A stretch of 64,000 nt of DNA from Streptomyces mangrovi (GTDB lineage: Bacteria > Actinomycetota > Actinomycetes > Streptomycetales > Streptomycetaceae), in assembly GCF_900114215.1 (NCBI RefSeq), contig NZ_FOSG01000013.1, forward strand, positions 1-64,000. The letters are read 5' to 3'. Made by a program: the position numbers and the translations under genes. Below are positions 6,326 through 15,636 of the stretch, piece by piece. Under the pieces are notes generated by a model, which worked only from the letters and a program-made list of their open reading frames with translations, ran no database searches and had not been told where the DNA came from. The stretch's first letter is position 1. Each line of letters begins with the position of its first letter.

Positions 6326-6416
6326 GCGGGTCTTCCGTGCGGCGGGCGGTACGGGATCCGGTGTCGGGGTCCGGCGGCGGGGTCTGATGTCGGTCCGGTG
6401 GCGGGGTGCTCTCGCG

Positions 6417-6450
6417 GTGAGGGGGACGCCGCTGCCGGCGTCCCCCTCAC
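6417..6450 (-). terminator. Hairpin between carB and pyrD
   Basis: A perfect 15-base inverted repeat (6417-6431 with 6436-6450) has a four-base loop, six bases past the carB stop. It looks like a terminator or attenuator that splits the pyrimidine gene run into pyrR-to-carB and pyrD-pyrF. Confidence 0.75.
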
Positions 6451-14053: not shown

Positions 14054-14659
14054 CTACCGCTCGCCGGACGGGGAGGCCCCCGCCTCGCGACGCTCGCCCA
14101 GGAGCACGCCGTCGCGGCCGTCCTCCTCGGCGAGCCGGACCTTGACCGTCTCCCGCAGCGACGTGGGCAGGTTCTTGCCGACGTAGTCGGCGCGGATCGG
14201 CAGTTCGCGGTGGCCGCGGTCGACCAGGACAGCGAGCTGCACGGCGCGGGGCCGGCCGATGTCGCCGAGCGCGTCGAGCGCGGCCCGGATGGTGCGGCCG
14301 GAGAAGAGCACGTCGTCGACCAGGACGACCAGGCGTCCGTCGACGCCCTCGGCCGGGATCTCGGTGCGGGCCAGGGCACGGGCGGGGCGCATCCGCAGAT
14401 CGTCGCGGTACATGGTGATGTCGAGCGAGCCGACCGGCAGCGGGCGGCCGGTGATCTCCTCCAGCTTGGCCCCCAGCCGCCTGGCCAGGTGCGCGCCGCG
14501 GGTGGGGATGCCCAGGAGGACCACGTCGTCGGCGCCCTTGGCGCGCTCGACGATCTCGTGGGCGATGCGGGTGAGGACCCGCGCGATGTCCGGTGCCTCC
14601 AGTACGGGGCGGACCGGGCCGGAACCGTTGCCGTCCAGTTCTCCCATGGATGTGTCCAC
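14054..14659 (-). CDS. pyrR: Pyrimidine operon regulator / uracil phosphoribosyltransferase
   Basis: An RNA-binding repressor that senses UMP/UTP versus PRPP; it often has weak uracil phosphoribosyltransferase activity. The 201-residue protein has the PRPP motif [20 protein letters not shown] and family segments [15 protein letters not shown] and DITMYRDD. It starts with GTG at 14659, behind an excellent AAGGAGGT ribosome binding site; an internal ATG at 14647 is less likely. The leader contains a sequence matching the PyrR-recognised loop right against that binding site. It is first gene of the pyr run, 135 bases ahead of pyrB. Confidence 0.96.
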
Positions 14660-14676
14660 GGTAAACGGACCTCCTT

Positions 14677-14696
14677 CCCCGCCTCACGGGACGGGC
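14677..14696 (-). promoter_or_regulatory. Candidate PyrR-binding RNA loop in the pyrR leader
   Basis: Read on the minus strand, the leader contains GTCCCGTGAGGCGGGG, matching the PyrR binding-loop core UCCNGNGAGGY known from Bacillus at every defined position. It can form CCCG/CGGG and CC/GG stems around a CGTGA loop, and the AAGGAGGT ribosome binding site (14676-14669) follows at once. In mycobacteria PyrR represses translation from such a site. Match seen directly; function inferred. Confidence 0.6.
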
Positions 14697-14697
14697 C

Positions 14698-14726
14698 TTA
14701 AAGGACGTCGGATGGTGCGCCGTCAA
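14698..14726 (-). promoter_or_regulatory. Possible pyrR promoter
   Basis: TTGACG (14726-14721) and CTTTAA (14703-14698) are 17 bases apart on the minus strand. If used, transcription would begin near 14690, which would remove the 5' side of the candidate PyrR loop; the two predictions conflict, so one may be wrong. Confidence 0.35.
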
Positions 14727-14869: not shown

Positions 14870-14898
14870 TTGACGCCGTACATTACGCTGCGTAACAT
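14870..14898 (+). promoter_or_regulatory. bldD promoter (HrdB type)
   Basis: TTGACG (14870-14875) and TAACAT (14893-14898) are separated by exactly 17 bases, about 37 bases upstream of the bldD ATG. This is the best vegetative promoter match in the window. The -10 overlaps the BldD box. Confidence 0.75.
14882..14896 (+). promoter_or_regulatory. BldD box (autoregulatory operator)
   Basis: ATTACGCTGCGTAAC matches all defined positions of the BldD consensus nTnACnCWGnGTnAn. It overlaps the -10 of the bldD promoter, fitting the known autorepression of bldD. Confidence 0.85.
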
Positions 14899-15435: not shown

Positions 15436-15538
15436 GGCACTCCCCCGCGGCCGCCACCGCCACCGGGCGGGACCTCCGTGCGAGGGTTCCGCTCCCGGTG
15501 GCGGCCGCGTTCCGCGCCGTTGCCCCGGGGATGCCGGA

Positions 15539-15585
15539 CGGCGAGGGGCCCGGGACACCCGACGGGTGTCCCGGGCCCCTCGCCG
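15539..15585. terminator. Bidirectional terminator between bldD and nusB
   Basis: A perfect 22-base inverted repeat (15539-15560 with 15564-15585) with a three-base loop lies between the convergent bldD and nusB. A second candidate immediately after bldD pairs 15446-15459 with 15496-15509 (14 bases, long loop), so bldD may have tandem terminators. Confidence 0.85.
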
Positions 15586-15636
15586 CTTCCGAGGACCTTG
15601 AAGTCCTGAGGTACGGCCGCCCCCGGCCCGAACCGC

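Follow-up and report, generated by a model that had tools for sequence, protein, structure and literature searches.

A hairpin enclosing the Shine-Dalgarno sequence of pyrR in Streptomyces mangrovi, a probable target for translational repression by PyrR

In the 64,000-nt stretch of Streptomyces mangrovi DNA analysed here (the window), the leader of pyrR is predicted to fold into a 42-nt hairpin that contains the Shine-Dalgarno (SD) sequence of the gene. By all of the sequence tests applied, the hairpin is a true PyrR site, and, judging from these tests and from analogous systems, it is probably the target through which PyrR would directly repress pyrR translation, in the mycobacterial manner. 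The features discussed below are the following.

14735-14726, minus strand: extended -10 CTGGTACCGT (TGnTAnnnT) of the pyrR operon, a conserved motif 27 nt before CCUUU
14721-14716, minus strand: presumed transcription start region, placed by promoter geometry some 7 nt past the -10, with about 10 nt left to the hairpin
14709-14668, minus strand: whole hairpin, 42 nt, predicted to bind PyrR; 31.3 bits with RF00515, 53 bits with our own model R1
14709-14700, minus strand: 5' strand of the lower stem, GACGUCCUUU, partner of the SD strand in the MFE structure
14695-14678, minus strand: upper stem and loop CCCGUC-CCGUGA-GGCGGG, carrying the PyrR recognition motif UCCNGNGAGG, from pairing and covariation
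14676-14669, minus strand: SD octamer AAGGAGGU of pyrR, forming the lower stem's 3' strand, from predicted unpaired probabilities and conservation
14659-14054, minus strand: pyrR, GTG start at 14659-14657, 201 aa; NCBIfam PyrR equivalog NF003547, 298.9 bits (cut-off 230)
14053-13919, minus strand: pyrR-pyrB gap of 135 nt, C-rich and without TGnTAnnnT
13918-12860, minus strand: pyrB, the first structural gene past pyrR; NCBIfam aspartate carbamoyltransferase NF002032, 397.9 bits

Read from 14709 to 14668 on the minus strand, the hairpin is GACGUCCUUU-AAGG-CCCGUC-CCGUGA-GGCGGG-GAAGGAGGUC, that is, the 5' strand of the lower stem, an internal loop, the two strands of the upper stem on either side of the loop, and the 3' strand of the lower stem, with a predicted energy of -20.5 kcal/mol. 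Both in the predicted fold and in the alignment to RF00515, GACGUCCUUU (14709-14700) base-pairs with GAAGGAGGUC (14677-14668), so that the SD belongs to the hairpin rather than to a neighbouring region. The initial annotation had described a PyrR loop abutting the ribosome binding site. The loop core GTCCCGTGAGGCGGGG (14692-14677) and the SD AAGGAGGT (14676-14669) that it named are indeed present on the minus strand, but the SD lies inside the hairpin, as the 3' strand of the lower stem, instead of adjoining it; an element made up of upper stem, loop and SD misses the 5' strand of the lower stem, with which the hairpin reaches 14709. The motif UCCNGNGAGG at 14691-14682 is closed by the upper stem, and the purine-rich internal loop and lower stem of PyrR-binding loops are present as well. 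The context also fits such a loop, namely the leader of a pyr-gene transcript (with the transcript start as predicted) in a genome that encodes PyrR.

Rfam family RF00515 matches the site at 31.3 bits (E 0.6) when a 17-kb stretch is compared with all Rfam families, below the gathering score of 54, and most of a 71-position model segment is skipped in the alignment. Over the 6.3-Mb genome, the same site is the sole RF00515 match at E up to 10 (E 0.053), again below the cut-off. The curated form of the family is the attenuator, and the terminator that this form has between loop and gene is also absent here. A covariance model of our own, R1, built from 83 sites with the window's own site among them, scores 53 bits (E 2e-9) on the window's genome, where the next-best place reaches 18.7 bits (E 1.5). 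Neither the RF00515 nor the R1 genome search gave a good match for a further PyrR site. Since the seed of R1 includes the window's site, conservation in the genus is a stronger test than the genome score. Folding z-scores (-0.56 for 91 nt, -1.39 for 42 nt) are weak evidence and were rejected as support, being uninformative.

With R1, 292 of 295 congeners prove to carry the site, as do 287 of the 288 near-complete ones; pyrR itself is present in 61/61 congeners and in 189/198 genomes of the phylum. At pyrR loci the site occurs in 58/58, 80/80 and 97/100 cases in three sets, or 235/238 in total, the 100 loci having been hand-picked, mostly down the score list, from 159 phylum hits lacking a locus, so that the weakest hits are under-sampled. 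R1 found no site at phylum loci L168, L225 and L232, where a degenerate hairpin-like stretch can be seen by eye ahead of each pyrR. The loop UCCNGNGAGG is conserved as well as the stem. In the 32 distinct sites of Streptomycetaceae type, pairing reaches 98.9% of cells and UCCUUU is invariant. The outer segments GACG and GGUC occur together at 91 of 97 loci, and the SD takes the form AAGGAGGT at 92 of the 97 and AAGGGGGT at 5.

Covariation is mainly derived from the phylum. In alignment A3, for which all 99 matches were kept, among them two weak extras (L161, L179) and a few that are partial, 94.2% of upper-stem cells are paired. Two upper-stem pairs show two-sided changes in 35 and 41 sequences, with 0 and 1 unpaired, and the covariation score of the upper stem, 0.317, is higher than that of any of 500 shuffles or any slid version. 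The lower stem is paired in 71.7% of cells, partly, we think, because the length of the internal loop varies while that of the model does not. Within the genus the pair data indicate strong conservation: one upper-stem pair changes from U-A to C-G in 9/32 Streptomycetaceae-type sites, the window included, one lower-stem pair changes from U-A to U-G in 2/32, and the others hardly vary. Covariation of the stem in other Streptomyces, proposed earlier as a check, amounts to one two-sided pair; most pairs there are invariant and uninformative, and the signal comes mainly from the phylum.

Upstream of the hairpin, TGnTAnnnT occurs no more than 40 nt before CCTTT at 92/97 Streptomycetaceae-type loci. 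A TAnnnT starting 25-28 nt before CCTTT is found in 90 of 96 leaders, compared with 17 of 480 control windows, and CTG at -4 to -2 of this motif is invariant in those 90 leaders, which indicates an extended -10. TAnnnT is the -10 consensus reported by a start-site study of S. lividans (PMC8079986). We infer that the pyrR transcript starts at about 14716-14721, upstream of the hairpin. A promoter inside the stem, TTGACG-17-CTTTAA at 14726-14698, had been predicted earlier, together with the worry that its start site would cut the 5' side of the stem. We rejected this promoter, which the promoter scan did not recover and whose TTGAC occurs in only 3 of the 96 related leaders; the TTGACG overlaps the end of the conserved extended -10. 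The comparison of leaders counters the worry as well, since a -10 at 14735-14726 would keep the hairpin whole in the transcript.

The pyrR gene is intact, and the nearest solved structures to its product are all PyrR proteins. Aligned with solved PyrR, the protein is conserved through TRIAHEI and a second, 18-letter stretch, regions to which RNA-binding residues of the Bacillus protein are reported to map. Downstream of pyrR lie pyrB, carA and carB; pyrC was identified from the ORF list alone. In this species, a second predicted hairpin, CCGUGGA/UCCAUGG, covers the GTG start codon of pyrR (window positions 14644-14661). The divergent gene upstream is bldD, and ahead of it, at 14882-14898, there is a palindrome TTACGCAGCGTAA resembling a BldD box, which overlaps a promoter-like TTGACG-17-TAACAT on the plus strand. 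Between bldD (plus) and a convergent nusB-like gene (minus, named by eye), a very strong GC-rich inverted repeat at 15534-15592 is probably a two-way terminator. Matches to Rfam mir families at this repeat and at 6416-6450 were rejected, both places being GC-rich inverted repeats and not miRNA.

In the mechanism that we favour, the pyrR 5' leader of about 60 nt would fold into the PyrR hairpin, whose upper stem-loop bears the recognition sequence and whose lower stem would pair UCCUUU with the SD AAGGAGGU. When UMP is plentiful, nucleotide-bound PyrR would keep the hairpin shut and cover it, so that ribosomes could not start on pyrR; when pyrimidines are low, PyrR would depart and ribosomes would be able to open the lower stem. 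We infer PyrR binding, nucleotide control and repression, the step from hairpin to PyrR binding being drawn from the known Bacillus and mycobacterial systems. As in the mycobacterial type, the loop covers the ribosome binding site of the first pyr gene, the SD lying in the lower stem at 14676-14669, and the leader has no terminator, with the 9 nt from SD to start leaving no room for an antiterminator. The initial annotation had favoured translational repression over attenuation, a reading supported by the intact PyrR, the genus-wide hairpin, the covarying upper stem and the absence of terminators at all 134 loci where the SD of the hairpin serves pyrR directly (direct loci). The points against translational repression are the RF00515 score below the cut-off, the weak folding z-scores, the single two-sided pair within the genus, and an SD predicted to be nearly fully closed without PyrR.

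How far such repression would reach is less certain than the likeness to mycobacteria, supported for the mode of repression by sequence comparison, would suggest, since pyrR and pyrB do not overlap in Streptomyces as in most relatives. In 94/95 Streptomycetaceae-type loci (Streptomyces, Kitasatospora) the gap from the pyrR stop to the nearest pyrB start is 58-248 nt (135 nt in the window), the lone exception in the set being a Streptacidiphilus locus (L117), whereas 37 of the 41 other Actinomycetota loci that have both genes show an overlap of the pyrB start with the pyrR stop. A block of pyrR translation therefore need not stop pyrB, and repression in Streptomyces may not reach pyrB through overlap coupling. 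Because pyrB lacks the overlap, PyrR should act directly on pyrR alone, and its influence on pyrB and the genes after it would have to come from polarity (e.g. Rho-dependent) or reduced mRNA stability. In S. coelicolor, ArgR binds at pyrR, pyrB and pyrA, and an argR mutant raises pyrB and pyrR more than any other pyrimidine gene (PMC5839063, PMC3293853); given this control, PyrR need not be the main regulator. Our prediction is that Streptomyces PyrR may mostly autoregulate, and the lost overlap predicts a weaker or indirect pyrimidine repression of the pathway genes.

The same gap bears on an alternative in which PyrR acts mainly at the RNA level, the stop in pyrR translation exposing the message to Rho or RNases so that the output is less operon mRNA. 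The lost overlap, with gaps of at least 58 nt, would suit it, as would the composition of the gap (C 49%, G 29%), Rho-loading sites tending to be C-rich. None of the 94 Streptomycetaceae-type gaps contains TGnTAnnnT, so that pyrB probably relies on the pyrR transcript, which again fits; the search for conserved blocks in the Streptomyces gap gave just a loose CGCCCGCRTGCC. However, C-rich stretches are frequent in genomes of this kind, and the composition given is that of the gap alone. In 2007, Fields and Switzer are said to have found transcriptional fusions unregulated in M. smegmatis, which counts against an effect at the RNA level, and we consider this alternative unlikely.

A hairpin at the ribosome binding site could also act without PyrR, by sensing temperature or ribosomes, and be kept for expression level only. 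The SD is indeed predicted to be closed without any protein, with an unpaired probability of at most 0.03 for 7 of its 8 bases at both 30 and 37 °C, the free base being a mismatched G. Across the 135 direct loci called by script (L059 included), the openness of the SD hexamer has a median of 0.24 and reaches about 1 (L098), a spread that we do not count as proof. Nevertheless, the loop UCCNGNGAGG, which is away from the SD, equals the stem in conservation and matches the PyrR site of Bacillus, which makes a PyrR-independent hairpin very unlikely.

Transcription attenuation of the Bacillus type, through a terminator and an antiterminator, has in its favour that the hairpin is the same binding loop as the Bacillus anti-antiterminator (loop mechanism described in PMC4347634). 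It is scarcely credible here: the terminator scan confirmed the earlier claim that no terminator separates the site from pyrR, finding no terminator-like site between 14500 and 15000, nor any in the 134 direct loci, and the 9 nt that separate the SD octamer from the start codon are too few to hold one. A terminator-like signal is present, in contrast, at 52 of the 58 loci classed below as other.

A chance match in a GC-rich leader can be dismissed, for although the loop motif TCCNGNGAGGY alone is at chance level (6 matches in the window against a shuffle mean of 3.5, with 14/100 shuffles reaching at least 6) and was rejected as evidence by itself, the conservation of the whole element in 292/295 congeners and at 235/238 pyrR loci refutes it.

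The 235 loci with a site were separated by what the SD of the hairpin starts, giving 134 direct loci, 43 with a leader ORF and 58 others, with L059 moved by hand out of the direct class (135 by script). The leader ORF is begun by the SD of the hairpin, has 14-40 codons, and its stop overlaps the pyrR start (TGATG or ATGA); a terminator often lies within the ORF. Examples are L045, L057, L058, L140, L142, L143, L150, L155, L170 and L175. The window's class, Actinomycetes, accounts for 125 direct loci, by label or by position inside its clade, and the 110 loci outside the class comprise 9 direct, 43 leader-ORF and 58 other loci. Leader ORFs occur at 42 of 98 testable non-direct loci (L059 excluded), compared with a mean of 7.3 and a maximum of 13 in 200 rounds of shuffled leaders. 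Their share of non-direct loci is 10/10 in family f12, 7/8 in f6, 6/7 in f13, 4/4 in f44, 3/3 in f17 and 3/7 in f19; most other families have none, and two AT-rich cases in f9 may be due to chance. In f6, all 8 non-direct loci carry a terminator-like signal, which the ORF traverses at each of the 7 loci where it is coupled (typical end GGCGTTTTTTGATGG).

In the PyrR tree of 144 rows, the clade with class Actinomycetes (34 rows, support 99/99) is all direct. The leader-ORF label changes 12 times on this tree, at least 8 of these changes being forced by well-supported branches, so that the trait is clustered without a single visible origin. The SD/anti-SD duplex has a median of -11.9 kcal/mol at direct loci and -7.6 at the 58 others (Mann-Whitney on distinct tails, p 1.6e-6, on rows that are not independent). 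At loci whose hairpin lies on the pyrR start codon, AAGG has thus grown into a full SD, as would fit a hairpin that PyrR locks to keep ribosomes out. With a median of -7.8 kcal/mol, leader-ORF loci are no different from the others (p 0.11). An antiterminator test on terminator-bearing relatives, taking the duplex energy of the 3' half of the loop with the 5' arm of the terminator against shuffled arms and run without a Bacillus positive control, gave a mean z of about 0 in nearly all families, classical-looking ones too, and plays no part in the argument. Two loci, L229 and L237, have a CCGU/ACGG lower stem and an SD outside the hairpin, and in them a terminator-like hairpin falls in the first pyrR codons.

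Tentatively, and with less than even confidence, we propose that the SD in the hairpin has been rewired among Actinomycetota: it would serve pyrR directly in the sampled Actinomycetes and a leader ORF in several families outside, and in f6 the ORF running through an intrinsic terminator would make a PyrR-gated, ribosome-dependent attenuator. In Streptomyces, under the same proposal, PyrR would have become chiefly an autoregulator once the overlap was lost, and ArgR would control the pathway genes.

Fields and Switzer reportedly described, in 2007, PyrR-dependent translational repression of the M. smegmatis pyr operon through a hairpin that occupies the ribosome binding site of the leading gene, with no terminator or antiterminator, and are said to have proposed it for other bacteria too. 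Their paper is cited in PMC13328217 and PMC10672894. In our search of the open-licence literature, neither a Streptomyces PyrR site nor a leader ORF gated by PyrR was described, and the search gave no relevant paper on pyrimidine repression in Streptomyces and no binding or expression data on Streptomyces PyrR; the main text of a survey of S. lividans leaders (PMC8079986) does not name PyrR. The score of 31 bits against Rfam's 54 suggests why automatic annotation overlooks the Streptomyces site. The hairpin makes PyrR control directly testable in Streptomyces, a major antibiotic-producing genus, and the leader-ORF relatives would link PyrR with ribosome-controlled attenuation.

Compared with known systems, the Streptomyces hairpin resembles that reported for M. 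smegmatis in lying on the ribosome binding site of the operon's leading pyr gene and in a leader free of terminator and antiterminator. It departs from most other Actinomycetota in the pyrR-pyrB gap of 58-248 nt, and the Streptomyces case is described here from sequence. With RF00515 and the Bacillus pyr attenuators it shares the loop, the upper stem, the purine internal loop and the CCUUU/AAGG lower stem; unlike them, it lacks the terminator half of the 115-position model, scores below the gathering cut-off, and has the lower-stem AAGG lengthened to a full SD. In E. coli, pyrBI is controlled by leader-peptide attenuation, with ribosome and polymerase coupled under the UTP supply. Only the leader-ORF relatives outside the class recall it, with a terminator within a short leader ORF before the pyr gene, an arrangement absent from the window; in these relatives, unlike in pyrBI, PyrR would gate the start of leader translation. 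The type of switch is already known, and it is the relatives' wiring of the same hairpin that is unexpected.
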